From Branchiostoma floridae (lineage: Eukaryota > Chordata > Leptocardii > Amphioxiformes > Branchiostomatidae), in contig NC_049995.1 in the NCBI RefSeq assembly GCF_000003815.2, forward strand, positions 2,082,296-2,146,295: 64,000 nucleotides of DNA, in the 5' to 3' direction. The notes under the pieces are model-generated. The model searched no databases. It was not told the DNA's origin and saw nothing but the letters and a program-made list of their open reading frames with translations. This document shows positions 24,561 to 59,712 of the stretch, piece after piece. Position numbers and translations under genes: made by a program. Position 1 is the first letter of the stretch; each line of letters opens with the position of its first letter.

Positions 24561-27500
24561 ATGGCTTTCCTTCAGTACCTGATCGCGGCTGTCCTGGTGG
24601 CCGGTAAGATCTAGTTTTGTTAAAATGTGTGTATTGCTTAAATGATTTTTTGCATTAACGATTTCCGACGTGTTTTAGACTCTTGGTCGGCCGAGCTATG
24701 CTATGCTGTGCTGTGTTGAAATTGACAAAAAAACATGTCAAAAAGATATCTGTATATTTCATCCGTATCAAAGCAGAGTGTTCAGAGAGTATCGAGTTTG
24801 TCCACAAAAGAATGTTTTAGCTTCATCGACAAATGTATTTAGTATGTTTAACGGTTTCTAAGATTGTATACATTTATTCAGAAGCAACCCATTCTCTGAT
24901 TGGCAATAAAAGTGAACTAAGATAAGAAATTTCAGCCAACATCTATAAAAAAGCTGTTAGCCAAATTATAACCTCTCTGCTCCGAAATCCAGTCTCGATT
25001 GCCATGCACTGGTCGTCCGTCCTTGCTTCACTTAAACAAATCGGAAATTTACATACTATAACATACATATGCATGTACGTCTCATAACTAGGCTGCAGAA
25101 TTCAAATACGTCAAACCCTAACACTCAAGGTGGTACGATTCTCACGGAGAAGCGTCGATGCAAAGTACTCATCCGTTGTTTTGTTTATATGCTGCAAACA
25201 AATGAGTCACGAAAAGGAGAATAATTTTTATCTATTCAATGCTTCTATGTACAAAGTGCTATATGACCTACACTGTAAATATAATACAGAAAAGTATTTG
25301 TTTCGCCGCGTTATATTAGCTTTGAAGGTAGTACATTGATTTGAAAAAAAAAACTGCTATGAATATGCGCTGTGACGAACTACAGCCAATCTTCAAATCG
25401 TGAGATGATGGCATGTGTGCAGTGTAACTGGCAGAGTTTAGGGCTCGGAACTTAGAGGCCTCGAGTTTGAATACCCTCTGTGTATGTGCTTTGTAGTGAC
25501 CCTAATGGCATAGTATTGAATGCGGGTAGCTTGACAGAAAGCCAGGGGGAAAACATTCTGCATCTTGGCAAAAATGTTGCCTTTCTATTTTCTTCTGTAT
25601 TGTTTTAATTCCAATAAAAAGGAAAAAAATATAACCAGACATTAACCTCGCTCCAGGCTCCCAGGCGAACTCTCTGGTTGACCGGCAGACCGGTTGCCAG
25701 ACCTTCTGCCCGTTCATGTTTATGCCTGTGTGCGGGTCTGACGGACAGACTTACAGCAACGACTGTCATCTGAACGTGCATGCCTGCGAGCTCGCCGCGC
25801 AGTGAGTACAAAACATATTCATTGATATCTAAAAAAGGTGTATGCAAAAAATTGAATAATCTTCTTTTATGTCATACCTGTGACGTGAAAACGTTCGATA
25901 CGGGTGTTCCGGACCGTGTGATAACTTTCCGTATCACACGGGTTCTAAGTTGTATCACACAGGCTTCCTTAGAGTAAATCGAACTATTTCGAACGGGCCG
26001 AATACGACACGGTTGAAAATTCGAATACCGGATTCGGACGTTAGAATTGCTGTTGTTACAATCTTTTGTTCGAAGACACAACATTTTCTCAACTTCTGGT
26101 GCATTCACATCGAAATGTGTGTTTTTAGTTGGGCATGACACAAGTAAAATACAACACGGTGTATTCCGCATCACCCTCGGTCCCAGCCCTCCCGCGGGTC
26201 GGATCACACTCCGGCCTTAGGGCGATCCTTCCCGCGGTCGGGCTGGTACCTCGGGTGATACGGAACACACCGTGTTGTAGTCTACAGTCACATAATAGTT
26301 ATGGATGATTTAGTGTGAAATGAACAGGCTGCGGTGCAAATAAAGAGGAACTGACAGACAGCATGGTATTTGGTAGGTCGGTAGGGGTCAGATAAAACGA
26401 AGGTCAAGTTCGATATTGAGCTTTCTAGTGACTTCCTATGGTACTGCAGTGGAACACGAAAGCAGCCATTGTAAGGCATAGGTCCCAATTCCCAACCCGG
26501 GGCCGGCCCCGTCGGGTAGCTTTCGGAAATGGAAAATATGATATGAAAGGCAAAATAAAACAGACAGAACTTTAAAAAAGTTAGGAGCACAATTCGTGCA
26601 TAATCATTGGTTAACAGTCATTTTTTGTTTCCGAAAACATCCCGGCCGGCCCCGTTTCGGAAATACATGTTTCTCTTTTCTCCGTTCGCCAGTGGCACAT
26701 ATCTACACAATAATGACTCCATGCATCGTATATGTGTTGAATTAACTTTTATTTCGGTTTGAAAAGAATAAATGGTCTGTTATCAATTGAGTCTTGTCAT
26801 TGGTATAAGTTGCTATCATAGTACACACGTAGTTGAGACTGGATTTTTGGACGGAGGGTGTGGGGAGGGGGACGATGTTGAACACGCATGTTCGCGAGTA
26901 GATGACTTCGCGAAGAGAAGGGCTCAGCGAAATACGCGAACTTAAAAATCTCGCGAACATAACTGAACTTACAGTAGAGCCCAAGCCTGAGTAAGACCAT
27001 GGCTGGTTCCACCTCTAACTCCTAATGCTCGCAGGTTCTCCAACGAGGCGGACTACCAGCTGCTGGCGCTCGCCAATCATTATATTTACACTCTCGTTGA
27101 ATGCGCAAAATCAACTCAAATGGTTAACGTATACTTCAAATGAAACAACAAGATTAAGCCTAAAGACAAATCTTCTGTTTTATCCTCACAGGCTCTCCAA
27201 CGAGGCGGACTACCAGCCCCTGACTCTGGCCCACCAGGGCATGTGCAGCAAGAAGCGGCAGGTCGGCGGCTGCCAGACCTTCTGCCCGTTCAACTTCATG
27301 CCCGTGTGTGGGTCTAACGGACAGACCTTCAGCAACGAGTGTCACCTGAACGTGCAGGCATGTCTGCAGGCCGAGCAGTGAGTACTGTGATACAAAAAAT
27401 ATCATTGAACTTGCTTGGATCATGTTTCCTCTAGCCTCTAGTCTTAATCTAATCTCTAAGCAGATCCTATGGTAGCATAAGATAGTATCTAAAGCTGCCT

Positions 27501-28640
27501 GAGGAGTGAAGCCGGCCCGGGAGTGTGTTTGGCTAGCGGAGCAAATGCATACCTCTTGGCTGACTACACTCATCGCCAGTTTAGTACTATCTTATGCCAT
27601 TGTAGGATCTGCTTGGAGATTACTGTATATGCAGAAACTTTCGCGGTGGTTTAATGTTCGCGGTTTTCGCGGTGGCCGAACTTAACACCACCGCGAACAT
27701 TTTTGCATGGCAGTAAGAGACTACAGTGCGTGGTGCTACGCCGAAACCACCGCGAAAAGTCCTTTTTCCCACTACCACGAAATTAAATCCCCGAGAGCTT
27801 AACTGCATTTACAGTAGTCTTAACCTTTCTTATCTTATGCTCACAGGTTCTCCAACGAGGCCGACTACCAGCCCCTGACTCTGGCCCACCAGGGCATGTG
27901 CAGCAAGAAGCGACAGTCGGGCTGGTGCCAGACTTTCTGCCCGTTCGTCTTCATACCTGTGTGTACCCCTAACTCCTTGTTTTATCCTCACAGGTTCTCC
28001 AACGAGGCCGACTATCAGCCCCTGACTCTGGCCCACCAGGGCATGTGCAGCAAGAAGCGCCAGGTCGGAGAGAACAACGGCGCCCACAACTGCCCCACTT
28101 TCTGCACCTTCCAGTTCGACCCGGTCTGCGGCAGCGACGGACAGACCTACAGCAACTCCTGCCACCTCAGCAGCGCCGCTTGCCTGTCTTCGTAAGTACC
28201 GCAAATGTTTCCAATGACTTTTGTTTTTGGCGACACCTCAGATAAGGAGCCTTTTTGGAATGAAAATCTAGTTAAATGTACTGCAAGTTCCATACATGCA
28301 TTTCAATTCTCTTCCAACAGATTGGTTATCCGTATTGATCCTGAAGAAGCAAATAGTGATCGCTGAAAATTTGACCCTTGTAAACCTTTGTGCAGAAAGA
28401 AAGTTTAATATTGTAGTTATATTACTACTGCATTTCAGTTTATGTTGTTTTTGCGGAGGCCGAAATATTTGATCTCCAAGCGGGCACTTTCGGGCAAAAG
28501 AAACCCCACAACCAAGACTTTACAAACAGATCTAGTGACAACGTTTTGCAAACGGTTGTATGACCTATACTTTTTTTTCTAGGTACAGCAACCCCGACGC
28601 CAAGCCCATCACCCTCGTTTCCCACGGCATGTGCTCCTAG
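24561..28640 (+). CDS. Kazal gene K1: multi-domain secreted serine protease inhibitor
   Basis: Exons 24561-24603 (signal peptide [15 protein letters not shown]), 25657-25801, 27192-27377, 27847-28191 (or 27994-28191) and 28583-28640 (stop TAG). Three complete Kazal domains are encoded; each has five Cys in one exon and the sixth in the next (HQGMC). The predicted reactive-site P1 residue, two after Cys2, is Phe in all, pointing to chymotrypsin-like targets. Before each domain there is Arg-Gln (LVDRQ, SKKRQ). The fourth exon holds a fused broken copy (see separate entry). Phases are 1, 2, 2, 2. TATA box at 24451 and AATAAA at 28774 frame the gene. It is the first of seven tandem paralogues. 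Confidence 0.85.
25415..25485 (+). mobile_element. SINE head relic
   Basis: GTAACTGGCAGAGTTTAGGG and GAGGCCTCGAGTTTGAATAC retain A- and B-box spacing in K1 intron 1. No tail is recognisable. Confidence 0.5.
26151..26279. repeat. 129-bp GC-rich fold-back in K1 intron 2
   Basis: ACAACACGGTGTATTCCGCA to TGATACGGAACACACCGTGT. A related GTGTGATAACTTTCCGTATC unit lies at about 25890-25970. Confidence 0.85.
26876..26976. mobile_element. Inverted-repeat element B, fragment
   Basis: TTCGCGAGTAGATGACTTCG to CTTACAGTA in K1 intron 2; strongly diverged. Confidence 0.6.
27035..27078 (+). pseudogene. Relic of a Kazal exon start in K1 intron 2
   Basis: An AG acceptor at 27034 is followed by about 45 nt nearly identical to the exon starts at 27192 and 27847 ([13 protein letters not shown] in frame), then homology ends with no donor. 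It is a third partial copy of the same exon left in the intron. Confidence 0.8.
27451..27621. mobile_element. Inverted-repeat element C in K1 intron
   Basis: AATCTCTAAGCAGATCCTAT to GTAGGATCTGCTTGGAGATT, with inner ATAAGATAGTA / TACTATCTTAT arms. Confidence 0.9.
27621..27816. mobile_element. Inverted-repeat element B, copy 5
   Basis: TACTGTATATGCAGAAACTT to AACTGCATTTACAGTA. It abuts the end of element C at 27621. Confidence 0.88.
27847..27993 (+). pseudogene. Truncated Kazal half-exon fused in frame to an intron tail inside K1
   Basis: From 27847 the copy reads [32 protein letters not shown] and PVC, then stops resembling a Kazal domain. The next 28 nt (27966-27993) look like the 3' end of the upstream intron, ending TTTTATCCTCACAG, and run straight into the next Kazal exon at 27994. 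The whole 27847-28191 stretch is 345 nt and stays in frame, so it could be translated with a Kazal lacking Cys4 and Cys5. Alternatively the retained acceptor at 27993 is used and the broken half is skipped; both joins keep phase 2. Confidence 0.8.
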
Positions 28641-29493: not shown

Positions 29494-31636
29494 ATGTTTA
29501 TCCTGTGTTTCGTCGCCTCTCTCCTGATAGCAGGTAGAGTAATATATTCTCCTACATTTTCTTTTCGTTCTTTTCAAAAATATACTCCTGTATTAATGCA
29601 CTGTTCAGTTAATTCTGACACAACTATATGCCATATCGATATCCGCAGGCGTAATTCTGCATATGGATCAACTTCCGTGGATTTGTGGTTTAAGGTTGAT
29701 CTCCTGGCTGATCAACTTTCTCCAAAGCCTTTTACTTTCTTTTTCTCTTGAGCCGCACCTGTGTCCCAAGTGCAGTGAGATACGTATACCACCTATGCGA
29801 AATGACATTTTCGCACCATATGATATGGTACATAGCACGACTATATAGTACGCCATGGTGAAAGCAGCTGGGGAGATTCTCATGCTCGCACGGGCGCGGG
29901 TCTGGGGTGTAGATGGCCCCGATAGTGGAAGCAATAAAAACCAAGGCATCGTATTCAATTACGTGATCCTAATTTGCATACTAATTTGCATAGAACAGTG
30001 TTCACTCTTACACCGTCTGTAGCTATACAAAGCACCAGTCATGGGAAACACGTTGTAGGACGTGGGTTCGTCTGTCATCATGTAACAAATTGTTTGCCGT
30101 GACCATAAGTACGTACACACAAAATGTATGGAACTACAGACTATTTTTACGTTTAATAAAGGTTAGACATCCAGGTAAATAATAGATCAGGTAAACCATA
30201 GACTGAATACCGGGTTTACAATAAAAACAAACAAGAAAACAAACAAACAAACAAATCTACACTATCCATAACCTCGTTGCAGGCTCTCATGCGAAGTCAC
30301 TGGGAAGAAGGCAGTACCCCGTTAACAGCTGCACTGGCTTGCCTAATTGCGCATCGGTCTTCCTCGGTCCTGTGTGCGGATCGGACGGACACTACTACAT
30401 TAGCCATTGTGACATCCACTATCATGCCTGTCTGCTTGCCGAACAGTGAGTACAACAACGTCCAATTTGTTTGTTACCGCCATGAAAGGTTATATTCTTA
30501 GAAGCGTTAGTGACGAAAACAGAAATGATTCGATTCGGGCCCTCCTAGCAGCTTCCATTGATACTGCAGCGGAACGTCAATTTTGTATCCTGTGTTGCGA
30601 AAAAGCGACGGTCAGAATTTTTCGTTGGATGTCTCTTGCGTGGTTTAGAGTGATAGGTGGAGAGTGAGAGGGGGGGATATGTAGATCGATCGATAGATAG
30701 ATAATTTGATAGGTTGATAGATAGGCGGATTGCGAAACAGAGAGAGATAGGTAGAGAGAGAGAAAGAGAGAGGGAGAGAGGGGCAAGACAGATGTATAGA
30801 TGCATAGATAGATAGATAGATAGATAGATAGATGTCAGTAGATAGAAGACTGGGAGAAAGAGGGAGAGAGAGAGAGAGAGACCTCGATTTTCCTTTTCAT
30901 ATCCTTCCAAGGTTCTCCCATGAGCCCGACTTCAAGCCCCTGACGATAGTCGCGTGCGATGGCAGGGAGACTGAGAAGCGGCAGTTCACGGACTCGGGCT
31001 GCCCGATGTTCTGTAACTTGATGTACGCTCCGGTCTGCGGCAGTAACGGACAGACCTACAGCAACTCATGCTTCCTCAACAGCGCCTCCTGTCAGGCTAC
31101 GTGAGTATTGTACTGGTGTTCTATCTAAAGTGACCCCTGAACCGCCCATGATTTTTGCTGACTATGAGTTGTTTTCTGTTTGCTATCTCACACGCGTGAC
31201 ATCTGTCATCACAACACAGTAAACGCAGTGTCCAATCACTGTTTTTCACGGGGACACAAACAATGCTAATTTAGAAAATATCATGTTTGATATATAGCTG
31301 TGCGATTTTGTGCTTTGTTCCAACACAAAAGGAACACTCAACATGAATTTTCAGAATCATCAGAGGTCTGATTCACTGCGCTGACTTTACCGGAAGCGTG
31401 ATGACGTCAAGAGTGAATCAAAGGAAGACGGAATCTATCACCATTGCGGTTCAGAGAGGGTAGATGGACCCTGTTTGTTGATGTGCAATACATTTTGTTT
31501 CAAATGACGTTTTGTTATTTTCAATTGTAGCTTCAATAACCCCGACGACGAGCCGATCACCCTGGCACATCAAGGAGGCTGTAACGGGGAGGGGCTCATC
31601 TCCCTCCCGGACATCGGGCCTGTCATGGTGTCATAA
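29494..31636 (+). CDS. Kazal gene K2: two-domain inhibitor
   Basis: Exons 29494-29533 (MFILCFVASLLIAG), 30283-30445, 30912-31100 and 31531-31636 (stop TAA). An upstream in-frame ATG at 29428 would add 22 residues; I prefer 29494 because it gives a normal signal peptide matching the sisters, but the TATA box at 29374 leaves room for both. Domain 1 (CTGLPNCASVFLGPVCGSDG) has eight instead of seven residues between Cys2 and Cys3 and unusual HYYISHC. Domain 2 (CPMFCNLMYAPVCGSNG) has Leu at P1. Arg-Arg-Gln and Lys-Arg-Gln precede the domains. AATAAA is at 31738. Confidence 0.83.
30677..30880. repeat. GATA/GAGA-rich simple repeat in K2 intron 2
   Basis: Runs of GATAGATAGATAGATA and GAGAGAGAGA; ends about 30 bp before the exon-3 acceptor. 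Confidence 0.95.
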
Positions 31637-32547: not shown

Positions 32548-35005
32548 ATGGCCATCCTACGGTGTCTGTTGGTTGCAGCCTTGCTGGCCGGTAAAGTAGT
32601 ATATCATTTGCATCTTAATCTTAATACCTTTTCCAAATTAAGCTAGAAACGTAAAAACAAATAACCATAGTGAAAAGGTTTGAAAAGGGAAGTTTTTTGC
32701 TAATTTTGTAGAGAAGAATTGGGTTTTCTTACAGGCATTGCTGTAGTTCTTTTTTTTGCACTAATTTCTGATGGGCTAAGAACTTTACTAGTACACATAA
32801 CTATTTAGAGAATCAGTATATCACAGTCATAATGTGCAGCCATATGGCACATTAAGACTGTCGCTATGCGAAAAGTCGACAGAAAAGCAGATGGTAGAAC
32901 TCTCACGCACACGTCAAGCCTTGCGTTGTGATATCACTTCCTTAGCATCAACCTTCAAATATGTAAAATCATATTAGAAGACATTCGGCAACGGAAAATT
33001 TTTCGACAAGAAGCCACAATTAGTGTACTAATAAAGCTGCATGTTATCAAATTAGTGACTGCGTAGAGACAGCCAAATCTTGTTCTGGTTTACCCCTAAT
33101 CTCCAAGCAGATCGCGCGTGGCCAATTTACTCCTCTGCCGACTAAACTCATTCCCCAGCTTATGTTACTGTCTTATGCCACGTAGGATCTGCTTGGAGAT
33201 AGTTTACCCGTCATTGGGTGCCAGCGTATTGTTACCTCAAAAATGGAGGTATAGTTTTGTTTGTCTCCGTACATGTGTCTGTCTATGTTTCTGGATATTT
33301 GTGGTTAGCATTACTTAAGAACCTCTGGATGCTTCGTGATGATATTTGGTATGCATGTGGGGAGGTTTGAAAAGACAAAGGTCAAGGTCAATTTTGGGTC
33401 CCCAGTTGTGTAACCTTTGCGCTGAATCAGAACTTCCATTTTTTATTTTATCTTATCCTAGACGTGCTATAGTCTTGACTTTTTAGTGGTAGATAGATCT
33501 TGTTTACTGCCTTTTTTCAGTCGGCTCGCAGGCTAAGTCCGTCCGTCAGTTTGACCTATGGAACCCGTCGGGCTGCCCGATGATCTGTCCCGCCCACTAC
33601 TCGCCCATCTGCGGCAGTGACGGTATAACCTACAGCAACAGCTGTCACCTCAACAGCGCCGCCTGTATTGCTGAGTAAGTTAAACCTAAAGGTGGTATCT
33701 CACTGCACTTGCGTCAAGCTTTGTCTCTGCGGGGTGCGTTCACTGCGTCACTGTTTTGTTATTTTCTCCGATTTTTCTATAATTCAGATATTGCGTAATA
33801 CGTAAAAGCATGTCTTAGAAGACGACAAAAAACACAAAAAGTAAGAAAATTCGCTCTTTATCTCTGAAACTCGTTGAGTATCTTTCGAACCCCGCAGTGA
33901 CGCAAGCGTGACGCATGTGCAGTAAGATACCACCTTAACATGCACAGGTAGATATAGGGACAGTTGGTGAAAGCTTATCTCTGCTTAAATGGACCACTGT
34001 TTATCGCAGTAAGTTAAACCTAAGGGGATTGTCACATAGGTCGTGCGATCGTCGTACGATTTTGATGCCGTAGTAATAGCAGACCGTGACAGAACCAACC
34101 ACTTACATGGATCCAAAACAGCATTTTGTGTACCGACTACCAAGACGGTTGAACTTTGCAGGAGACGTACATTTTTGTCCTACAAAATGCCCGAAGTTAG
34201 CGATCGTATGATGATCGTACGACCTATCTGACCGCGCCCTAACATATACAGCTAGCTGCTGGAACTTTTTTGCCAACGCCTCAGGGGTGGGGCTTCTTGT
34301 AAATAAACTGCGGATCCCAGCCATTTATGCGTCTACTTTGCACACTTTAGGGACATTGAGTTTTGAGTTTTCAAGAATTCAAGTGCGCAGCGAATATAAA
34401 AATGGCTTATCCTGTTCCAGTCACGTGATATATAAACTCGGCACAAAAAGTTTGGACTATCAACTTTGGCTGATCATATTTCCGTTGTTTCTGCATCAAT
34501 TTTAATGTGTTATATATCAATAAAAAGTGTGTGTGATTTCCATTCATATGGTATCGAACTCTTATGATTATAAATTCTCGGAACGAGCATCAGGGCTCGA
34601 AAAAAAAGTGCCCAAATTTCAATTTTTGTGTTCAATTTCTTTTTTTTATCCTGCTGGTATGGGGGCGGTGTCAAGGATTCAATCTATCCTTTTTCACGTA
34701 ATCTTTGGTATACAGAACATACAAGTTTATCTTTAAAATTTGAGAAGAGTATATGTGCCCTTTTGGCTGTTGGATGACCGATGTTTAGATGCCGTTTGGG
34801 ACAGTGTGTTGTAGATATTCTTAGATAAGATTACTCTTTTTCTTTTTGCTTCACAACCATGAAGAACATGTTTAATGATACTAACGTCTTGTTTGTTTGG
34901 TTTTGATCCAGGTTCAACAACCCTGACGCTGAGCCAATCACCGTGGCGCACCAGGGCGGGTGTAACGGCGAGAGTCCGTTCACGTTTGGAGGCGAGGGCC
35001 GTTAA
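32548..35005 (+). CDS. Kazal gene K3: single-domain inhibitor
   Basis: Exons 32548-32590 ([15 protein letters not shown]), 33521-33674 and 34912-35005 (stop TAA). The single domain reads [35 protein letters not shown], with Cys6 in the last exon (HQGGC) and Ala at P1, suggesting elastase-like targets. SVRQ precedes it. The last exon and the start of its 3' UTR are almost identical to those of K5. AATAAA at 35153. No clear TATA box; TGACGT motifs lie near 32402 and 32423. Confidence 0.85.
33098..33200. mobile_element. Inverted-repeat element C in K3 intron 1
   Basis: AATCTCCAAGCAGAT to GTAGGATCTGCTTGGAGAT, shortened centre. Confidence 0.85.
33236..33510. mobile_element. Fragment related to the 1.08-kb element
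   Basis: AAAATGGAGGTATAGTTTTG, TTAAGAACCTCTGGATGCTT and GACGTGCTATAGTCTTGACT resemble parts of 7470-8100. It ends just before the acceptor of K3 exon 2. Confidence 0.6.
34031..34233. mobile_element. Inverted-repeat element F, copy 2, in K3 intron 2
   Basis: GTCACATAGGTCGTGCGATC to GATCGTACGACCTATCTGAC, with the same GTTGAACTTTGCA centre as 22631 but opposite. Confidence 0.85.
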
Positions 35006-35152
35006 CGCCGCGGCAAGATGGCGGCTGCAATGGCGGCGGTTTCGAGCCTATATTTTCCCCTAAATTCCAACCCTCTAGATGGCGTTCCTGTCAGGGCTAT
35101 AGTTTCCTGCATAACATTGTTCTTTGAAAAAAAAATGAGTTGTCATTCTATG

Positions 35153-38151: not shown

Positions 38152-38324
38152 GGTAACTACTGTCTATGTGCTTTTTAAGGGACCAATTTGGTACTATGAT
38201 GAAAACTTTCACATCTTTAATTCATTTTCGCAACGTCATGCATTTTAGCTTCAACATATGTAGGCCATCTACAACCCGTCTGGATCCATTCTAGTTCATG
38301 GATAAATTTATGTGGGGCCGCGTA

Positions 38325-43551: not shown

Positions 43552-43747
43552 NNNNNNNNNNNNNNNNNNNNNNNNNNNNNNNNNNNNNNNNNNNNNNNNN
43601 NNNNNNNNNNNNNNNNNNNNNNNNNNNNNNNNNNNNNNNNNNNNNNNNNNNNNNNNNNNNNNNNNNNNNNNNNNNNNNNNNNNNNNNNNNNNNNNNNNNN
43701 NNNNNNNNNNNNNNNNNNNNNNNNNNNNNNNNNNNNNNNNNNNNNNN
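43552..43747. other. Assembly gap (196 N)
   Basis: Unknown bases inside the 7.4-kb element; true length uncertain. Confidence 1.
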
Positions 43748-47191: not shown

Positions 47192-50100
47192 ATGGCCATT
47201 CTGCAGCTGTTGGTTGTCACGATCCTGGTGGCTGGTACGGAAATCATTATGTTTCGTATGGTAACATCTGTAAGCCTTTCTGTAGAGTTTTACCTAGATA
47301 AAGCATTCTCACTCTTGGACTTGCCTTCTTTTAGAACAACTGGGGAGAACACGGGATAATGTAGCCAGACGCGTCAGTGGATGAAACGTCTGGGGTTAAT
47401 TTCCAAAATCTTATCCGGACTTGAGTATCTACATTGGCTTATCTCTTGCCTAATACCTGGATGTCTAACCTTCATTGACGTTTGAAAACACCAGTCCTAT
47501 AATTTTTCTGACCCAGGTCCCCAATTGCAAAGCCAAGTCGCTGGGTTTTCAGAACAGCAAGCATACAAAGTCTTACAAAAATGAGAAAAACCTCAATCTC
47601 TCAGCCTCCTTGGTGGCAGACATCTACAAGCTCTGGCTTTTTTGTGGGAGTGCTGTTCTGCGATTTTCTAATCTCCAAGCAGACCCTACGATGGCCTAAG
47701 ATAGTACCGGAAGATACACTCCTTTACTCCTCTCTCAGCTTTGATACTATCTTAGGCTACCTTTAATAGGCTACCGTAGGATCCGCTTTGAGATTAAGAT
47801 TTTCAACATTCTCTACGGTTCGAATGCCGGGAGGCTGAGGCCCCGCGAAGAAGGCCACCAATATGTATTTTTTTTCTGTCCCAGGCTCCCAGGCCAAGTC
47901 TCTGGTGGCCCGGCAGGGTTTAGGGAACAGCTGCCCGCAGGCGTGTCTCTTCATCTTCGCTCCTGTCTGCGGCTCGGACGGGATCACCTACGGGAACCAG
48001 TGCGAACTGGAGGTGGCAATGTGCGAGCAGGAAACGCTGTAAGTAGGGTAGCACAGAAAATTCAGGTCCAAGTCCGGTTCAGGCCCAGAAGATCAGGTCC
48101 GGGTCCGGATCCGGACCTAATCCTGGACCTTATTGTCTGTGAAAACTTGTGAGTACGCGATTCACAAAACAATGGTGCATTGATGGTCCAGTGCGAACTG
48201 GAGGTGGCAATCTGTAAAACACTGTAAGTCAGCCGGCGAGCATCGGTTTAACACAACTCGAATTATTCTTTAAAAACATAGATGTAGTTCATTACCTCCA
48301 TGAAATGTCATGGAGGTTATATTTTACCCCGCGTTTGTCTGTCTGTCTGTGTGTGTGTGTGTGTGTAAACAAAATAACTCATGAACGGTTGGGTGGATTG
48401 GTTTCATACTTTGTGTGTTGGTAGTGTCTGATAAAAGCTGGAAATGATTAGATTTTGGACCCCCTAGCGACTCCCCTTGGTACTGCAGCGCAACTTCCGG
48501 TTTTACTATCTCGGTGTTCTGAATATGCTATGGTCACGATTTTTTAGTATTAGACAGCTCTTGTGCTCAGGAAGAAATGACATAAGTTTGGGCCCCCTAG
48601 CGTCTAGTTTTGAGATAGCAGGGGCATTTTTGTCAAAAACTTCTGACGAGGATAACTCAAGAAGGGAACAACGGATTTTCATGATTTTTGGTATGTAGAT
48701 ACCTTAGACAATGTTGTACAAGATAAAATACTAATTATGCAAAATAGGCGTACATTTGCATAATTAATGAGAATATTCTATCATAGCAGTTTTTTCAATG
48801 TATCTCTTGTCCCGGACGTGATATGGTCGTGACATTTAAGTGGTAGATAGCTTTTAGCGTCATGACAAAGTGGGGCAAGTTTCAGTCTCCTAACATTTAA
48901 TTGTGGAACTGCAGGGGCGTTTTTGTCAAGACACTCCAAAGAGGATAACTGCAGAAAGGAACGACGGATTGCCTGCATTTTAGGTATGCAGGTAGCTTGG
49001 GCAAAGATGTTCAAAATGATAGGCATTTTATGCAAATGAGGACTTAATTTGCATAATTGATGAGGACATTGCATAATTGCATTGTTTGTAATAACTGGAC
49101 TTCGATAAATGTTAATTATAATCAGTGGAACATATGCAGATATCAAATATGCAAATGAGGAATTTATTTGCATAATTTATGCAAAAATTGCAAAACAACT
49201 TGATATTAATGATCTGAATTGGGAATTTTACTTGTGACATGTGTACTGTAGGTTTTTCAATGATGAACAACACCATGCATAATTCATGTTAATGTTAAGT
49301 CATTTGCATGAAATTAACAAAAGCTCTAAATATTCATGGAGGTATGAGGTCGCCGAACTCTAGTTTTAATATCCGTTAATACGTGTCACTTTTTTCTGAA
49401 CGAAAAGAACAGAATCTTAAAATTTCCTTAATCAAAAGCAATATCATTTCTATATCTTATCCCCCTAAACTTCATTTTATCAATGATGTTTTTGGCTACG
49501 CCTCTGGGGCGAAGCGTCTTTTTGGATCAGCCTCCAGGGCGAAATGCCTGTTGACCCCGACGACTCACGATTTTCAGATATAAAAATTCATTACATTACG
49601 TTTCTTGGAAATTAATGTGTGATCGTGTTTGAACTTAATACTTTTGATGTTTTGTATCAAATCTGTTCTTTGTTTTTTTCGCGGTGGCCACTTCACCGCG
49701 AACTTAAAACCACCGCGAACATTTTTCCAGTATAGTAATACAATGTGACTACAGTGAATGGCGCTACAACAAACACTCTATGTTTCCACTACCGCGAAAG
49801 TAAATCCCCGCGAACTTCAATACATTAACAGCTTTACTTCCGTGCCAGGTTCTCCCACCAGCCGAACTACAAGCCCCTGACGCTGGCTCACGACCATCCC
49901 TGTGGAACTGTCAACAAGAAGCGACAGTTCAACTCCGAATGCCCCATGTTCTGTCCGGAATACTACTCCCCAGTTTGCGGCAGTAACGGACAGACCTACG
50001 ACAACATCTGCTTCCTGGAGAGCTTTGCCTGCCTTACTGCGTAAGTTGGGCTTCTTTAAAGCAATTTCTTTCTCAATATACCTTCAGTTTATTTCACGTG

Positions 50101-51588
50101 CGATGGTGCGGTGTGCGATGGAGCAAACCATTCTGTCTGGAGTTGGTGATTCACTACAAATCACCCGGGATGAGGCCTGGCGAACCTCTGTCTCGTATCA
50201 GTCATACGGTGATTTACATCATTCACCATGCCCCGGGGAGGAGACTAAAATGCCTATTGAAACAGCATAACATGTTGTGCTACCACTACGGCTGATTAAT
50301 CAGCGTACGACTGTTTAAAAATCTATGGGACTTATTTCAAATAGGGACAATTTGAATAGCATTTTCAATGTTGTATTGCTCATTTAATGTACTAACCTCC
50401 GGGATCCAATCTACGGAAGAGACGAGCAGACTTACAGCAACATTTGTTTCTTTGACCTTGTAAAAAGTTGTAATGTTCTATGGCAGTAGTGTACTTTTCT
50501 GATATCTATTTTTGAAATCTACGGCATATATTTGTTCATTTTGAAGCTGCTTTAGAGTATGGTTGAAAAAGTTTTTGTTTTTTTACCTTGCCGGGCCTTA
50601 GCCCGGCAAGGTAATGAGGCCCGATCTTTACATGGTTCAATCAATGGTTCAATGTTAACCCAGCCCTTCCAAAGGCCCTTCAAAAGGCCCTTTTCTCTTT
50701 GCCCAATTTTATGGCTTAGTTAGACAAGGGTACATTGCAGGCCAGTATTGAAACTGTATTTTAGACGTATGTGGTCCAGCGTAAATAAATCTACGCTTTA
50801 ACCCATGTTTATCATAAAGATATATCAAAAATTGCATCAGAAGGAATTTATTTTGTAATAAAGAATAATGCATACTCATTGTGGGTCAAAAAGTTTTACA
50901 ATACCGGTTTATTGTGCCAATAATTTATCTGACATAGATTATGTTAATGAGGTAAATTTCCCTACACTTGGGGATTTTTGCTGCATTTCATACTGAAGTT
51001 CCTAGGTGTCGCTCTTTGTACATTGCAACAACATGAAACAAAAAAATAGCCGCAAACTTCGGGACTAGTAGCCAGGTAAGTACATTTTAAAGACATTTGT
51101 GACTATGAATGTCCTTGATAGAGTTTGTATTGTGTGAAAAATAGATTTGAGACTGGATTGGCAGCTGGAGAAGTCACTAAAGCTTTCCCGTACAAGAATT
51201 GGGGTGGGAGGGGGGCGACATGTGGAACTCTGTGGTTGTCTCTGATTATTTTGATGTGATCCTCATGTTAACTGATGAACACTGGTGAAGCGCTGAGGTA
51301 GCTTTTCCTGACGAAATCCCTACTACCCGGCAAGGTACAGCTTTTTTTAAAGCACTTGAACTTTTGAAACGGACGAAATTAATGCCATCCACATCATCAA
51401 ATTGACATGGCCTAACACACACGAAAAGCTAGATTGATGATGATAACTACCATTCATGTCTTTGTTTGTTTGTTTGTTTGTTTGTTTGCTTCAGTGTGAA
51501 CCGTCCCAACGCGAACCCAATCACCTTGGCGCACCAGGGCGGGTGTAACGGCGAGAGTCCGTTTACGTTTGGAGGCGAGGGCCGTTAA
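47192..51588 (+). CDS. Kazal gene K5: two-domain inhibitor
   Basis: Exons 47192-47234 ([15 protein letters not shown]), 47885-48038, 49849-50040 and 51495-51588 (stop TAA). Domain 1: [19 protein letters not shown] with Phe at P1 after LVARQ. Domain 2: [19 protein letters not shown] with Glu at P1 after KKRQ; acidic P1 is rare and would suit a Glu-specific protease. Introns hold a duplicated exon end (48188), a 1,075-bp repeat and a decayed exon (50397). AATAAA at 51744. Confidence 0.85.
47670..47795. mobile_element. Inverted-repeat element C in K5 intron 1
   Basis: AATCTCCAAGCAGACCCTAC to CCGTAGGATCCGCTTTGAGA, about 126 bp. Confidence 0.88.
48050..48150. mobile_element. Left-end fragment of the hAT-like family next to K5 exon 2
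   Basis: CACAGAAAATTCAGGTCCA and repeated GGTCCGG motifs match 38540-38615. The fragment begins 12 bp past the K5 exon-2 donor and is followed by the duplicated exon end at 48188. Confidence 0.75.
48188..48229 (+). pseudogene. Duplicated end of K5 exon 2 with its donor
   Basis: CCAGTGCGAACTGGAGGTGG and a CTGTAAGT donor repeat the end of the real exon (47997-48043) about 190 bp downstream, with the middle changed. The copy has no acceptor, so it offers only a decoy donor. Confidence 0.85.
48291..49365. mobile_element. 1,075-bp interspersed element, copy 2, in K5 intron 2
   Basis: End-to-end match to 7470-8546 with the same ends and the same internal microsatellite position. Truncated relatives occur at 6526-6610 (inverted), 21263-21296, 33236-33510 and 35330-35600 (inverted). 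Confidence 0.9.
49679..49834. mobile_element. Inverted-repeat element B, partial, before K5 exon 3
   Basis: GCGGTGGCCACTTCACCGCG to AATACATTAACAG; it ends 15 bp before the K5 exon-3 border and so may supply part of the acceptor tract. Confidence 0.8.
50397..50475 (+). pseudogene. Decayed 3' half of a Kazal exon in K5 intron 3
   Basis: GAGCAGACTTACAGCAACAT followed by TTGTTTCTTT matches the segment coding [10 protein letters not shown] of K6 exon 3 (55507-55530), but the flanks are degraded and the Cys-Gly-Ser-Asn stretch is lost. Confidence 0.75.
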
Positions 51589-51743
51589 CGCTGCGGCAAG
51601 ATGGCGGCAACAGAAAGGGGAGGACCTGAATGTAGTACTGTCCTACCTGTTCGATCCGCATGGTGGCGTTGATGCCATCTGTAGCATGTTGTCTACATCT
51701 ACATTGTCGTGCTATGTTAAGAGCGCCAATTCACATTTCGTTG

Positions 51744-52106: not shown

Positions 52107-55100
52107 ATGGTGTTCTCACAGGTGATAGTTCTCACCTTTCTGGTGGCAGGTATGGCAAATATTCATGTATCTACGCCAAATGTGGTTTATAAATGTTGAT
52201 TTTTGAGAAAGATGATAATGTCGCGGTATTCTCTATATCATAATATAATCCAAAAGGATTGAAATGTTGATTTTGTGTGTTTGAATGTATTGTTCCGTGC
52301 TAGTAGTAACCATATGGAGGGACATGGCGTGGCCAGAAGTATAAGTATCAAACCATGCGCCAAAGTAGGTAAAGCTAAGTGCAAGCCTAATTAAATCGCG
52401 CTTATACCGGCCCGCCCAACGTCGCCAATCACTCTGTAGAAAGAGGCCTGCTAGTTACAGCGCAGTTTGCCTTCTAACGACTTACTACAAGAAATATCAA
52501 GTATCAGTTAACCATTAATCACCAAGCAGATGTTGGGAGTTAAGATCGTAACGTATCCGGACTAGGCTTTTCTGACAGCTGCGCATGCCCACCTTAGCTC
52601 TGAGGGTGCCGACTGTCCACAGATGACTCACTGGATCACTTCATTAATTGTAAGAGACGCTCAGCAGTCAGAAAAGGCTACGATCATACACCACAACATC
52701 TGCTTGGATATATACATACACATCTGCTTGGATGTCGATACATATAACCAAATAGGCTATAAGAAAAAAAGAAGAAGAAAAAAAGCTTGAGGAAACTCTT
52801 CTATACGATCGTATTATTATGATTGAATAAAACAGTGCACGTGTATTTGTTTAGCTGCGCTGCATTATGTAAACATCTATATATAAAGTGTCCATCAAAG
52901 AATTAGCATAGAAGATTTAAATCTATAGAATTACCACGACTATGACAGAACACGTATATATTTCCTGCCCATACAGCAGGCTTCCATGCCAAGTCTCTGG
53001 TTGCCCGGCAGGGATGACTGGATCCGTACGGCTGCCTGATGGCCTGTCCACAGACAACAAATCACATAATTGTCAATAATTGAAGATTTATCTTACGATG
53101 AATATGACAAAACACACGTATTTCGTTCCGAACAGGTTGCCAGACCAAGTATCTGGTTGCCCGGCAGGGATTGCTGGACCCGTATGGCTGCCTGATGGCC
53201 TGTCCACAGACAACAAATCACATAATTGTCAATAATTGAAGATTTATCTTACGATGAATATGACAAAACACACGTATTTCGTTCCGAACAGGTTGCCAGA
53301 CCAAGTCTCTGGTTGCCCCGCAGGGATTGCTGGACCCGTATGGCTGCCTGATGGCCTGTCCACAGACAACAAATCACATAATTGTCAATAATTGAAGATT
53401 TATCTTACGATGAATATGACAAAACACACGTATTTCGTTCCGAACAGGTTGCCAGACCAAGTCTCTGGTTGCCCGGCAGGGATTGCTGGACCGGTGACGA
53501 CTGCCTGATGGCCTGTCCACAGACAACAAATCACATAATTGTCAATAATTGAAGATTTATCTTACGATGAATATGACAAAACACACGTATTTCGTTCCGA
53601 ACAGGTTGCCAGACCAAGTCTCTGGTTGCCCGGCAGGGATTGCTGGACCCGTATGGCTGCCTGATGGCCTGTCCACAGACAACAAATCACATAATTGTCA
53701 ATAATTGAAGATTTATCTTACGATGAATATGACAAAACACACGTATTTCGTTCCGAACAGGTTGCCAGACCAAGTCTCTGGTTGCCCCGCAGGGACTGCT
53801 GGACCCGTACGGCTGTCTGATGGCCTGTCCACAGACAACAAATCACATAATTGTCAATAATTGAAGATTTATATTGAATATGACAAAACACACGTATTTC
53901 GTTCCGAACAGGTTGCCAGGCCAAGTCTCTGGTTGCCCGGCAGGGCTTGCTGGACCCGTATGGCTGCCTGATGGCCTGTCCGCTGCTGTTCGACCCTGTC
54001 TGCGGGTCTGACGGGATCACCTACAGCAGCCCCTGTCATCTGGACGAGGCCGCATGCCAACTGGCCGAACAGTGGGCTTTTTTCTTTTCATCTAACACTT
54101 TTCTTTGTTTGTTTGTTTGTTTATTTATTTATTTGTCTGTGAACGATAGACAAGCTAATGTCTAGTCTTTACGCACCCTCACAAGGTAAGTAAAGTAAGC
54201 AAATAGATAAACAAACAAATAACCAACCAGGCCAAACGAAGCAAAGAGCTACACATTATCAAATCGATAGTTATCTGCGCAGTGACACAATGCAAAACGC
54301 CGCGGCTCCAATTGAAACTTCAGTGGGGAGGGGGGCAATAGAGTGAAAAGAGAATCGCCGTGTAAAACTGCCTGAAGCTTAGCTCAAGTTTTATAAGCTC
54401 ATCCATAAGATTCATTCATGTATCATGGTCGATAAGAATTGACATTCACCCTGAAAGGTACAAGAAAAAAGATCTTACCTTTCAAAACATGTCGACCACG
54501 CGTTGACATGTCACAGTCGCGCGCGGTAAATTGATAAAGACCGGTCCCCAGTGACTGTCCATCACAATTAGGAGTTCAGCCAATAGGGTCGTGGCAATCA
54601 ATGATACAACCAATGAGAGAGTGGCTTTAAGTCCGTGAAATAGTTGTATTTTAATAGTTTTGTTTTACATTTCAAACTTTCGACAGAGATGAGCGGGGCT
54701 AGGGGATAGGTCCACCCGTACAGTAGCATGATGTAAAGGTCTCTCAACGTCCAATCAGCGCGATCGACACGATTTTGAATGGGTGCAGGTTCGCACTCTA
54801 GATGACCTCAATATTCGGGTTACCAGAACCTGATTACCCGGATGATAGCGATATCAAAGACGCGAAAAAGTAATCTTTTGTAACAGGATGAATCAATAAA
54901 GAACTCTGCAATGAAACGCAATTTAGGCAATGTCATTCACTTGCCAGTGAAACATTTGGCCAATTGCTTCCCTTCTACATTAGTTGACTTATCTCAAAGT
55001 ACTGTTACTGTAACACAAATTCTTAACTAAAGTTTTTATGACGAAAGCTTGCCTGCGTCAAGATCAAATTTGAACTCTAATTTACTACATGAAAAATGGA

Positions 55101-56140
55101 CTTACTCAAATTTTCTCCTCTCCAACCTTAGTCTTTGTCAAGAATGAGCAATCCCCTACCTCTTTATCGTATCGGCCTGCAGATAGAACACGTGACATGG
55201 TGAGCGCAGTGGATCATAAGTTGCAGAGTGTCTCCGTTGAGACGGGGGGAGGGGCTTAGACAGTTTTTTTTTTAATTGACCAGCACAGATGAACTTTTAA
55301 GTTAAGTTTGCTTTATGTAATACTTGTGTTGGGTGTTGTAACGTTACTGTTTTGCCAGCTTCGCCAACCGACCTGACTACAAGCCCCTGACGATGGCCAG
55401 CGAGGCCCCCTGTACCCGTGAGACCCAGGACCGTAAGCGGCAGTTCGACTCCGACTGTCCCATGTACTGTCCGGAGTACTACTCCCCGATCTGCGGCAGT
55501 AACGGGCAGACGTACAGCAACATCTGCTTCTTACAGATGGCTGCCTGCGTATCTGCGTAAGTCAAACTTGTTATCCTTATTGCTATTGGCTGGGCAATTG
55601 GATTCGCATGGGTCTGGAGTGGCTGCCATTCGACGCTAACTCAGATGACCTCAATACGACGGTAATTGCCCATAGTGCGGCCATAGGACTGTAGGTTTGA
55701 ACCACTCACACCGGGAAGGGCCCATTCACTTCAAACACGGGACCTCCTTAATGTACTATCCTAGTGACGGACTTCTGTAGAAGACCCCTTTTGTCCTGAA
55801 ATATCTTTCATATACTAGTGTTCACTATTATACTAGTACTATCCTATATGGAACAGCATTCTAAACGTTGAAATTATTAAGCCAAACTATTAGCAGGTAT
55901 GAAAATTACATGTATATACAATTATCTAAAATCAACATGAACATTTATAATCTCCAATAGACAAACGGCATATGAACTTTTTTATGTGTTCTCGGTTTAT
56001 TTTTTTTTATTTTTGTTTGTTTGTTTGTTTGTTTGCTTTATTTTAGTGCCAACGATGCCGACGCAAGGCCCATCGTCCTGTGGCACCCTGGCGGCTGTAA
56101 CGCTGACGGCAGCGTGATGGACCTCCCGCTGTTATCCTGA
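52107..56140 (+). CDS. Kazal gene K6: two-domain inhibitor
   Basis: Exons 52107-52149 (MVFSQVIVLTFLVAG), 53912-54071, 55359-55556 and 56047-56140 (stop TGA). Domain 1: [19 protein letters not shown] with Leu at P1 after LVARQ. Domain 2: CPMYCPEYYSPICGSNGQT with Glu at P1 after RKRQ. The exon-2 donor is GTGGGC, weaker than GTGAGT in K1 and K2. Six truncated copies of exon 2 lie just upstream (52980-53911). AATAAA at 56211. Confidence 0.85.
52517..52710. mobile_element. Inverted-repeat element C-like, K6 intron 1
   Basis: AATCACCAAGCAGATGTTGG to ACAACATCTGCTTGGATA; the inner part differs from other copies (CTTTTCTGAC arms). Confidence 0.75.
52980..53911 (+). repeat. Tandem array of six truncated K6 exon-2 copies with intron
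   Basis: Copies begin at 52980, 53136, 53292, 53448, 53605 and 53761, period 156-157 bp, and the intact exon at 53912 is the seventh. Each has the acceptor (TTCCGAACAG in copies 2-7) and about 80 nt coding Ala/Thr-Lys-Ser-Leu-Val-Ala-Arg-Gln...Gly-Cys-Leu-Met-Ala-Cys-Pro, then turns into intron sequence (ACAGACAACAAATCACATAA). No GTRAGT donor follows, so they cannot act as normal internal exons. Copies 2-6 are nearly identical, so the expansion is recent. Confidence 0.93.
55640..55785 (-). mobile_element. SINE 3' fragment in K6 intron 3
   Basis: On the minus strand CACTAGGATAGTACATTAAG then GAGGTCCCGTGTTT matches the SINE tail at 38463-38495. Confidence 0.6.
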
Positions 56141-56210
56141 GCAGAATCGGCAGGTAGCGCTGGTGACAATGGCAAGAGCAAATAGCGCTGTGTTATTCGC
56201 CTCACATTCG

Positions 56211-56216
56211 AATAAA
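56211..56216 (+). terminator. Polyadenylation signal of K6
   Basis: AATAAA about 70 bp after the K6 stop codon. Confidence 0.8.
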
Positions 56217-57155: not shown

Positions 57156-58536
57156 ATGGCGGTCTCACTGGGCGTGCTTCTGATCTTTCTGGCAGCAGGT
57201 AGGGTTTTCAAGTTTGAATTTCAAACTGGCATCATCGTATGAGTGTTTTTGTCCTTTATGAAAGATGAGATGGTTGCTCTGTCTTTCTATTTGTCCGCAT
57301 TGCCTTGCTTTTTGCGCTCCAATATGGCTTCTTATACAATATGGTTACGGAATATCACATTACAACATAACCATACATGTATATGATCATACATTGCTTC
57401 ATCTTAGCCAGTCTTTTCTTGAATTTTTGTACTTTTGGTATTGGACATTAAAGGCTGTTCCATGTCTGAGGGTAAACTTACTTCAATATATTTTAGTTTA
57501 CTTCAATATTATTTACAGCGTACAGGTGCCAAAGTCTTTTCGTCTTAAGTATACCATGCCTAAGTATACTTAAATATACCGTAATTTTATCGAATACAAG
57601 CGCAATTTCATTTGCATGTTTAATAATCATCGGATTCGTTTTGAATATACAACAATGTCATCATTGTAAAGTATGTGGTAAATTGTTGCGTTGTATTCAA
57701 CAAAATGTCAAATACTGCACTGGCTCTGATAAATTGCAGTGTATAAAAATGTTGTCGGGAATATTGCTTGATATTCATTAATGAATATCCCATTTCAGGC
57801 TGCCAAGCCAAGTCCGTGGCCAAACCGAAGCGCCAGTCGCTGTCGGAGGAAGGCTGGTACCAGGCGGGATGTCTGAACCACATGGGCTGCGGCGTCTCCG
57901 TGGACGGGCCCTTCTGTGCCAGTAACGGACAAACCTACCACAACTACTGCGCCTTTCTCACTGCTGCATGCATCTGGCCGTAAGTTCACGTTATTCTCTT
58001 TTTGGTGAAGCCCCAGGGGCGGAATCAATAGTCATTCTTATTTTGGCGACGCCTAAGGTCCGGAACTCGAAAAGCATCTGTGTGATACTTCATTTTCAAG
58101 TTTTGATACAAAAAGTCGATAAAACTATATACTCAATAGATAGTATGTGAATAAGGGTGGGTGAGTGAGTGAGTGATTGAGTGAGTGAGTGAGTGAGTGA
58201 GTGACTGAGTGAGTGTGAGAGAGATATCATGAAAAGAGAGATATATCAGCATCTAATCTTTCTTTCTTTCCTTTCCGTAATCTCGGTGTCAGATTCGAGT
58301 ATCCGGATGACCCACCTGTTGTGTATGAGCACGATGGAAGATGCAGTAAGTAGTACCCAGATGTTACTATGATAGTTGCATTTTAGTACTTTGCCCCCTG
58401 TGTGTAACTGTTTGTAGTGGTGTAACGAGAATTCGTTCTCGTTTAGAGAATGTCAGCTCTTGAAACGTGGCTTCTTTTTGGCATCTACCTGTCATTGTGA
58501 CTTTATGTCTAGATAAAAATCCCCCGCCCCGCCCCT

Positions 58537-58603
<67 letters not shown>

Positions 58604-59712
58604 CTCTGTTCTGAACCAAAATGTGTTCTCTTCTCAACCAGACTCGGCCCGGACTCACGCCTACCACCAGAAGCGCCAGGGGACCGCCCTGACAGACGAG
58701 CCTTGGTACCAGGCCGGTTGCCTTGACTACGTGTTCGAGTGTCACATGACCGGCACGGAGGGCCCGTTCTGCGCCAGCAACGGTGTGACGTACCACAACC
58801 CCTGTGCCTTCCAGAGCGCCGCCTGCATCTGGCCGTAAGTCGTGCTGTAGTTTCATGACAGTTTTGTTTATCTAGACGGAAGTGTCTGTTGACATAATGA
58901 CCCTTAGTCTCCAAGCAGACCCTACGGTGCCAAGCAGACCCTACGGAGTTAGTATCAAAGCTAGCAAAGGAGTATAGCCGGCCAAAGGACGTCAAACGGG
59001 CACCGGTGCCGCTATCTCTAAGGCACCGTAGGGTCTGCTTGGAGACTAGGTGACCCTGACACTCAAGAGAAATGTTTGCACTGCCAGTGGATAGGATCAT
59101 CCTGTCAATAGTCAGAAAGATCTTGGTTATACAATGTAGTGCTGTATTTTACATCATTGCTCTTGGTCGGAAGTCATGCTTTAGATTTACGACAGTTCCA
59201 TTTACGGAAGTGTCTATTGTCAGGATGACCTTGTCAATAGGAGGAAATCTTGCACTGTGGAGAGTATAATCCTGTCAATAGTGAGTAAGATTCTGTTTAT
59301 AGTGCTGTATTTTACATTATTGCTCCTGGCCGTAAGTCGTGTAGTAGTTTACGACAGCTTCATTTACGTGTCTATTGACAGAATGATCTTGTCAATAAGA
59401 GAAACTTTTGCACTATGATGAGTAATGAAGATCTTGTATGAAGTGTTGTATTTTACAACATTGCTCCGAGAGAATAAAGCAGCCGTTTTGCGTCAGGTGA
59501 AAAATAACAGCGATGAATTGTTTTAGAGAAACTTGTGTACTTGTGTATCCTGTAGGTCATGAAAACCTCATTCATTCTGCTAATCATTACTCAACGGATC
59601 GAGGTCTTAAAGACGTCTGTTATTTACATCTTCTTCTGTTTTTCTCTGTTGCAGATATGAGTACCCCAATGATCCACCAGTCACAGTTGTGCATAACGGC
59701 GCATGCGCCTAG
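57156..59712 (+). CDS. Kazal gene K7: divergent two-domain inhibitor
   Basis: Exons 57156-57198 (MAVSLGVLLIFLAAG), 57799-57979, 58293-58345, 58642-58834 and 59655-59712 (stop TAG). Domain 1: CLNHMGCGVSVDGPFCASNG, then TYHNYCAFLTAACIWP. Domain 2: CLDYVFECHMTGTEGPFCAS, then TYHNPCAFQSAACIWP. Cys2-Cys3 spacing is eight and nine residues, not seven, and Ala-Ser-Asn-Gly replaces Gly-Ser-Asp-Gly. P1 is Val and Met. KPKRQ and QKRQ precede the domains. It has an extra small exon (58293) holding Cys6 of domain 1, so each domain ends in its own exon. AATAAA at 59795. Confidence 0.85.
58158..58215. repeat. (GAGT)n microsatellite in K7 intron 2
   Basis: Repeated GTGAGTGAGT units; each contains a GTGAGT donor-like hexamer but lies 180 bp past the true donor. 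Confidence 0.9.
58541..58598. repeat. (CA)n microsatellite in K7 intron 3
   Basis: About 29 CA units, 44 bp before the exon-4 acceptor. Confidence 0.95.
58835..59470 (+). repeat. Tandem repeat with duplicated donor in K7 intron 4
   Basis: Three diverged copies of roughly 140-170 bp start at 58835, about 59168 and 59330. Each begins like the exon-4 donor (the third with GGCCGTAAGTCGTG) and continues with TTTACGACAG..., TTGTCAATA and GCTGTATTTTACA motifs. The first is split by an inverted-repeat element at 58906-59048. The third copy keeps a functional-looking GTAAGT donor. Confidence 0.75.
58906..59048. mobile_element. Inverted-repeat element C in K7 intron 4
   Basis: AGTCTCCAAGCAGACCCTAC (with the end repeated at 58929) to GTAGGGTCTGCTTGGAGACT; splits the first unit of the donor-bearing tandem repeat. 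Confidence 0.88.

Follow-up and report, generated by a model that had tools for sequence, protein, structure and literature searches.

In pro-parathyroid hormone and pro-albumin, a convertase removes a basic propeptide of about six residues that follows the signal peptide, and the seminal single Kazal inhibitors BUSI-IIA and HUSI-II/SPINK2 carry pyroglutamate at their mature N-terminus, a point on which our literature search returned nothing. In the part of its description available, the Kazal precursor LEKTI (SPINK5) is cut by furin, the D6–D7 linker included (PMC10218509). Triatomine Kazal precursors are described in an excerpt as multi-domain, and one domain is releasable according to the title of a paper cited there (PMC3886914). 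The partial account of oyster Cg-BigDef1 gives a signal peptide, a 13-residue basic propeptide ending in RNKR and then a Gln that becomes pyroglutamate, as inferred from mass (PMC3182236). Here we analyse a 64,000-nucleotide stretch of the Branchiostoma floridae genome (contig NC_049995.1, positions 2,082,296 to 2,146,295; the window), which holds on its plus strand, at 24561–59712, a Kazal cluster of at least seven genes coding small protease inhibitors. The Arg-Gln pair that stands ahead of the Kazal units of six of these genes is real and non-random. We consider it likely that a convertase cuts at Arg|Gln and that pyroglutamate then forms, turning the precursors into capped single-domain inhibitors with six cysteines each.

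The Arg-Gln pair and its constraint

Exon models built by splice rules (GT–AG introns, matching phases) give the cluster seven signal-peptide exons, 15 Kazal units (13 from a pattern scan and two further ones seen by eye and then confirmed) and eight terminal exons that supply the final Cys6 and the stop. The limits that an earlier note on this DNA had set, 24561 and 59712, agree with the ATG of the first signal exon and the final stop codon. A gene's first Kazal exon opens in phase 1 and closes in phase 2; it encodes the last residues of the signal peptide (GSQA and variants), then a few more residues, Arg-Gln and the domain from Cys1 to Cys5. In an inner Kazal exon both ends are in phase 2, and the coding sequence supplies Cys6 of the previous unit, a basic stretch, Arg-Gln and the next unit's Cys1 to Cys5. 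The first Kazal exon of the K4 gene has the same layout without Arg-Gln, and its inner exon lacks both the basic stretch and Arg-Gln.

All 13 Kazal units of six genes, K7a and K7b/K8 being counted as one gene, have Arg-Gln ahead of Cys1 (K1a, K1b, the truncated K1c, K1d, K2a, K2b, K3, K5a, K5b, K6a, K6b, K7a and K7b/K8), and neither of the two K4 units does. This bears out the earlier note, which had read the pair ahead of almost every Kazal domain in six of seven genes, with Gln always after Arg, and had found K4 without it; the motifs it listed (LVDRQ, SKKRQ, GRRQ, EKRQ, SVRQ, LVARQ and others) are all present in frame. Its statement that the site always lies between Cys6 and the next Cys1 is true of six sites (K1b, K1c, K1d, K2b, K5b and K6b), and the other seven follow the signal peptide and come before the first Cys1. 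A cut would separate domains at the former and remove a short propeptide at the latter. Likewise, its picture of each gene as a polyprotein fits K1, K2, K5 and K6, which are multi-unit, and fails for K3, which has a single domain, and for the K7 region, which yields two single-domain products.

We also considered the CAG of Arg-Gln as a splice acceptor and rejected it. In the seven first exons with Arg-Gln the modelled acceptors lie 23–32 bases 5′ of the Arg codon. The first Kazal exons start in phase 1 (GC, GT, TC, AC), fitting the phase-1 signal exons, and an acceptor at that CAG would be in phase 0. The codons from the acceptor to Arg-Gln (QAKSLVAR and variants) are alike in frame between genes.

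Within the linkers the pair changes place, with three to eight residues ahead of Arg and two to 13 from Gln to Cys1. When each linker was shuffled with its composition kept, Arg-Gln arose by chance with a probability of 0.07–0.40 per linker, the product being about 10^-12.0 over 13 linkers and 10^-8.7 over ten less redundant ones; because the shuffle treats paralogous linkers as independent, this product overstates the case, and a tree count is the safer argument. That count covered the 12 complete units, leaving out truncated K1c and both K4 units, the latter because they lack the motif. On protein and DNA trees alike, Arg underwent no replacement change and at least five synonymous ones (at least four at the third base and one at the first), and Gln did not change at all. 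By the same count, six of 35 gap-free core columns are as constant as Arg and Gln, and the mean core changes at the three codon positions in turn were 2.2–2.3, 2.1–2.2 and 3.4–3.5 over both trees. The Arg codons of the 13 sites are CGG (six), CGC (three), CGA (two), AGG (one) and CGT (one). The Gln codon is CAG at all 13, a uniformity that says little because Gln usage in the exons is 49 CAG to four CAA.

All units look paralogous, and the 5′ parts of K1b, K1c and K1d are clearly recent copies, as would suit an Arg-Gln pair inherited through exon duplication and devoid of function. This reading is disfavoured, to the point of being barely credible, by an Arg whose codon has changed at least five times without once altering the amino acid, by linker columns that otherwise all vary and by the divergence between genes. 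Amino-acid identity between genes averages 45% (60 pairs among the 12 units) and differences are seen at 267 of the 450 four-fold third bases compared; recency therefore does not account for the identity of Arg-Gln.

Eight columns never vary in the exon alignment of the 12 complete units (Arg, Gln, Pro, Cys3, Ser, Gly, Cys4 and Cys5), with the Cys1 and Cys2 columns displaced by the alignment in K2a only; no linker column besides Arg and Gln is invariant. A motif that shifts position and yet stays the same suggests an enzyme's recognition site more than a structural place in the fold. The pair might instead be an uncut, basic linker that binds heparin or matrix, or spaces domains of tandem inhibitors acting intact. 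Basic stretches can bind glycans, and agrin, follistatin and ovomucoid, which are not known to be cut into single domains, are among the best sequence matches of K5, the one of the eight precursors with which a PDB search was made. An uncut linker leaves unexplained, however, why an invariant Gln follows an invariant Arg while their position moves and their neighbours change, and why single-domain K3, K7 and K8 have an N-terminal site, and we think it quite unlikely. Gln could also be kept as a transglutaminase acyl donor that tethers the inhibitor to mucus or matrix, as in elafin-like proteins. An invariant Gln in a segment of variable length and the Lys residues of the propeptides would accord with this, but such a donor needs neither the preceding Arg nor a basic pair, and its probability appears very small.

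Candidate maturation and its products

Lys or Arg occupies P2 at nine of the 13 sites (eight Lys-Arg, one Arg-Arg), among them all six inter-domain sites and three of the seven first sites, and 12 sites have Lys or Arg at P2, P4, P6 or P8. The earlier proposal of cutting after basic pairs therefore covers nine sites and leaves four (K1a, K3, K5a and K6a). R-X-X-R is the furin motif, and furin as the processing enzyme was set aside since this motif occurs at none of the 13 sites. We take the P2/P1 basic pattern to follow a PC1/3–PC2-like rather than a furin-like cleavage rule. The furin motif is also given in the form RXKR in the available part of PMC3182236. In K3 (KSVR) Lys stands at P4, and in K5a and K6a (KSLVAR) at P6. 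For the amphioxus PQRFa precursor, the accessible part of a report names the cut sites KVSR, RSGR and RFGR, and mass spectrometry detected the RFamide peptides (PMC4077772). Amphioxus thus seems to use single-Arg sites that have a basic residue at P4, as K3 would require.

Several points weigh against convertase processing. The four sites named above are not basic pairs, and the K1a site, NSLVDR|Q, has no basic residue at P2, P4, P6 or P8; Arg is at P4 in none of the 13, which leaves no canonical furin RXXR site. The signal peptides were picked by eye, and their cleavage was judged with the −3,−1 rule. The eight precursor models contain 14 dibasic pairs, overlaps counted, and every one sits at an Arg-Gln site, but a shuffle predicts just 0.22 such pairs inside the mature units; their absence there is no independent proof, because the low Lys-plus-Arg content predicts it. 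The precursor models hold 52 Lys and Arg in 1178 residues, of which the mature sequence (14 units, K1c included and K4 taken as one) holds 17 in 973 residues. The telling point is that the basic residues are located in the removable pieces.

From the sequence we strongly infer that most of the inhibitors are trimmed at Arg-Gln. The cluster would be a tandem array of genes for secreted Kazal inhibitors made as preproproteins. Signal peptidase would cut after G[S/C][Q/H]A, or after DSA in K8, and a subtilase of the proprotein-convertase kind, more like PC1/3–PC2 (Lys-Arg, Arg-Arg) than like furin, would then cut C-terminal to Arg. In the first unit of all genes but K4 this cut would remove a propeptide of 4–9 residues (KSVR, KSLVAR, KSLGRR, KSVAKPKR and the like), and in K1, K2, K5 and K6 it would also part the domains. 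A carboxypeptidase would trim the exposed KKR or KR, and the new N-terminal Gln would cyclise to pyroglutamate, giving 12 capped inhibitors with varied reactive loops.

Cutting the models at every Arg|Gln and trimming Lys and Arg from the inner units leaves 12 complete units of 58–74 residues, one to three complete domains per gene, and each of the 12 has exactly six cysteines; K1c would give a product with four if its exon is used. All 13 sites would expose Gln as the new N-terminus. With pyroglutamate and three disulfides, the predicted monoisotopic MH+ values are 6289.58 (K1a), 6406.67 (K1b), 6461.68 (K1d), 7231.20 (K2a), 7712.27 (K2b), 7636.23 (K3), 6873.04 (K5a), 7434.16 (K5b), 7352.23 (K6a), 7369.14 (K6b), 7497.14 (K7) and 7691.24 (K8), the inner units being taken without their trailing Lys and Arg, and K3 and K5b as keeping the C-terminal Arg; a product that is cut but uncapped would be heavier by 17.03. 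The interpretation offered in the earlier note thus survives as a selected, strictly kept Arg|Gln whose use would release exact six-Cys products, and fails as a description of every gene as a polyprotein.

Non-classical Kazal domains have a short Cys1–Cys2 spacing of about three residues. The spacing is three residues in 11 of the 15 units, five in K2a, K4b and K7a, and six in K8. The reactive-site P1 of Kazal domains is the second residue after Cys2. By this rule P1 is Phe in K1a, K1b, K1c, K1d and K5a, Leu in K2b and K6a, Ala in K3, Glu in K5b and K6b, Ser in K2a and K4a, Asp in K4b, Val in K7 and Met in K8, the assignment being uncertain for K2a, K7 and K8, which have eight or nine residues between Cys2 and Cys3. 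No unit of the 15 has Lys or Arg at P1, and the inhibitors should therefore not block an Arg-cutting processing enzyme. Judged by these residues, the targets are most likely chymotrypsin-, elastase-, subtilisin- or Glu-specific proteases, which may be of microbial or digestive origin. The most changeable core column in the tree count, with nine changes, is the loop column after P1.

The same features would serve an extracellular trypsin-like protease, of the mucus, gut or clotting type, that cuts Arg-Gln and thereby activates or separates the inhibitors only where it is active. Such enzymes cleave at single Arg residues like those in LVAR|Q and LVDR|Q, the mature units are so poor in Lys and Arg (17 in 973 residues) that cleavage would fall largely at the linkers, and inhibition of such a protease is not expected when P1 is never Lys or Arg. 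A trypsin-like enzyme would not, however, need the Lys or Arg found at P2 in all six inter-domain and three of seven first sites, and we rate this alternative as improbable. A bolder extension of convertase processing, which we regard as doubtful, is a neuropeptide-style family. Storage and PC1/3–PC2-like processing in regulated secretory granules would yield pyroglutamate-capped inhibitors of differing specificity from one locus, some of which (K3 and K5b, ending in GGEGR) would also lose their C-terminal Arg and be amidated via Gly and so be capped at both ends, with P1 diverged to spare the processing enzyme.

Gene models and the rest of the window

The signal exons were chosen by eye, by place and likeness, from the 19 rows of a crude scan. 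The chosen exons, one for each of K1 to K7, have a start Met, a hydrophobic core and a phase-1 donor, and measure 40–43 bases from the ATG to their end in phase 1. In a Pfam scan (PF00050 / PF07648) all eight precursor models, K1 being scanned without K1c, match Kazal_2 above the cut-off, K7 barely so (23.9 versus 22.8 bits), and seven of the eight match Kazal_1 above its cut-off. All cluster exons lie on the plus strand.

K1 begins with a signal-peptide exon at 24561..24603, ending in a phase-1 donor. The K1a Kazal exon follows at 25657..25801 (propeptide NSLVDR|Q, Cys1 to Cys5; Arg-Gln codons at 25683–25688), and the K1b exon at 27192..27377 carries the Cys6 of K1a, SKKR|Q and the next Cys1 to Cys5 (Arg-Gln at 27256–27261). 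Next comes a fused K1c and K1d exon at 27847..28191, in which the K1c pair is at 27911–27916 and the K1d exon occupies 27994–28191 with its pair at 28058–28063; the terminal exon with Cys6 is at 28583..28640. K1c is cut short after Cys3 and continues directly into another acceptor-like stretch and then the K1d exon, keeping Arg-Gln and lacking Cys4 and Cys5, as if a deletion had joined K1c to K1d. The K1 model has 209 amino acids and three complete units; use of the fused exon, which includes truncated K1c, would raise the length to 258 amino acids. Phase 2–2 exons can be duplicated without a frame break, which fits the repeated units of K1.

K2, with two units and 165 amino acids, comprises a signal-peptide exon (29494..29533), the K2a exon (30283..30445; KSLGRR|Q, Arg-Gln at 30309–30314), the K2b exon (30912..31100; DGRETEKR|Q, Arg-Gln at 30979–30984) and a terminal exon with Cys6 (31531..31636). 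The single-unit K3 model of 96 amino acids joins a signal-peptide exon (32548..32590), its sole Kazal exon (33521..33674; KSVR|Q, Arg-Gln at 33544–33549) and a terminal exon with Cys6 (34912..35005). K4, a two-unit model of 144 amino acids, has its signal-peptide exon at 36563..36605, the K4a exon at 36889..37018 (GSQA|VSINC, no Arg-Gln), the K4b exon at 37708..37878 (no Arg-Gln, and the three-residue linker LGL between Cys6 and Cys1) and a terminal exon with Cys6 at 38088..38178, taken to the first stop, so that a further exon may exist.

The two-unit K5 (160 amino acids) consists of a signal-peptide exon (47192..47234), the K5a exon (47885..48038; KSLVAR|Q, Arg-Gln at 47911–47916), the K5b exon (49849..50040; GTVNKKR|Q, Arg-Gln at 49922–49927) and a terminal exon with Cys6 (51495..51588). 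Its 3′ end resembles that of K3: over the terminal exons and 3′ flanks, 34912–35036 of K3 and 51495–51619 of K5 agree at 104 of 125 bases, the shared flank includes CGGCAAGATGGCGGC after the stop, and the two proteins share the C-terminus FGGEGR, in which Gly-Arg could signal amidation. K6, also with two units (164 amino acids), is made up of a signal-peptide exon (52107..52149), the K6a exon (53912..54071; KSLVAR|Q, Arg-Gln at 53938–53943), which has the weak donor GTGGGC, the K6b exon (55359..55556; TRETQDRKR|Q, Arg-Gln at 55438–55443) and a terminal exon with Cys6 (56047..56140). A 156-bp tandem array at 52989–53981 (6.4 copies, 96% matches) lies just upstream of the K6a exon and extends into it; the stretch encoding SLVARQG recurs with an exact DNA match at 52994, 53462 and 53619, upstream of the real exon, as partial copies of its first half.

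The region 57156–59712 has one clear signal exon and then two Kazal-plus-terminal cassettes, K7 and K8. The signal-peptide exon (57156..57198), possibly common to both, is followed by the K7a Kazal exon (57799..57979; KSVAKPKR|Q, phase-1 acceptor, Arg-Gln at 57831–57836) and the K7 terminal exon with Cys6 (58293..58353; FEYPDDPPVVYEHDGRCSK, then the stop), and further on by the K7b, or K8, Kazal exon (58642..58834; RTHAYHQKR|Q, phase-1 acceptor, Arg-Gln at 58674–58679) and the K8 terminal exon with Cys6 (59655..59712; YEYPNDPPVTVVHNGACA, then the stop). The models have one unit each and 94 (K7) and 97 (K8) amino acids. The earlier note had taken K7 as one two-domain gene, which we rejected in favour of two single-Kazal units: the K7a and K7b acceptors are both in phase 1, K7b has no Cys6 to offer K7a, and each has a Cys6 terminal exon of its own (58293, 59655). 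A first scan, limited to G|GT donors, found no signal exon between K7a and K8. A wider scan of 57200–58640 that admitted any phase-1 donor gave 11 rows with one start of note, at 58229 (MKREIYQHLIFLSFLSVISVS..), in a candidate K8 signal exon that partly coincides with the K7 terminal exon and whose donors (GTATCC and others) are poor. Sharing of the K7 signal exon with K8 is the simpler reading, the case for a signal exon of K8's own at 58229 being weak, and K7 and K8 may be alternatively spliced cassettes of two exons each. Which signal exon K8 uses affects its model and its N-terminal residues but not its Arg-Gln.

Outside the Kazal genes, eight of ten open frames picked by eye on the minus strand at 1704–17721 match Pfam domains, namely C-type lectin, FXa_inhibition (EGF-like), SRCR (in three pieces, one just under the cut-off), Sushi, CUB and F5/8 type C, which suggests one or more mosaic scavenger-receptor-like genes; SRCR, Sushi, CUB, F5/8C and C-type lectin exons would suit a lancelet genome. 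A 30-bp repeat at 15731–16275 (18.2 copies, 96% matches) can be read without stops in several frames of either strand. In the long gap that separates K4 from K5, a 65-bp tandem array of about 27 copies occupies 40407–42217, where the GC skew is strong (0.241 for 40001–44000).

Comparison with known systems

Among the matches listed in the open-access literature, we found no Kazal family reported with an invariant Arg|Gln before every unit, no report joining Kazal with pyroglutamate, prohormone convertase, dibasic propeptide or glutaminyl cyclase, and, in work on amphioxus or Branchiostoma Kazal proteins, nothing on this cluster. If the proposed maturation is correct, it joins prohormone-type processing with Kazal inhibition and accounts for the release, from one locus, of many small inhibitors that resist proteases and differ in specificity. 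It would also supply exact masses and N-termini to seek, with K4 as a built-in contrast and convertase-rich tissues as the place to look for the proteins.

The PDB matches of K5 further include 1y1b and 1y1c (elastase inhibitor), presumably the sea anemone inhibitor AEI, as well as rhodniin, infestin, dipetalin and 1bus, listed as PROTEINASE INHIBITOR IIA. Infestin-, dipetalogastin- and rhodniin-type inhibitors have a close Cys1–Cys2 spacing, and their precursors, as far as the source describes them, resemble the cluster in being multi-domain Kazal proteins. They are described there as anticoagulants of blood-feeding bugs, and the Arg-Gln rule does not appear in the portions of those descriptions available. 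LEKTI, in the part of its description at hand, is likewise a secreted, cut precursor with Kazal domains; it has 15 domains and is cut by furin, whereas the genes here have one to three complete domains, RXXR at none of 13 sites and an invariant Gln at P1′. Cg-BigDef1, on its partial account, shares a basic propeptide followed by pyroglutamate and is an immune, cysteine-rich product, but has a defensin fold and gives one product per precursor. Pro-parathyroid hormone and pro-albumin differ in having a P1′ residue other than Gln and in yielding a single product that is not an inhibitor. In BUSI-IIA and HUSI-II/SPINK2 the Gln is exposed by signal peptidase, unlike the Arg-Gln cut proposed here. 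Kazal folds, inhibitor polyproteins such as LEKTI and infestin, and products with a basic propeptide and pyroglutamate such as Cg-BigDef1 are each known; their combination was not found among the matches listed.

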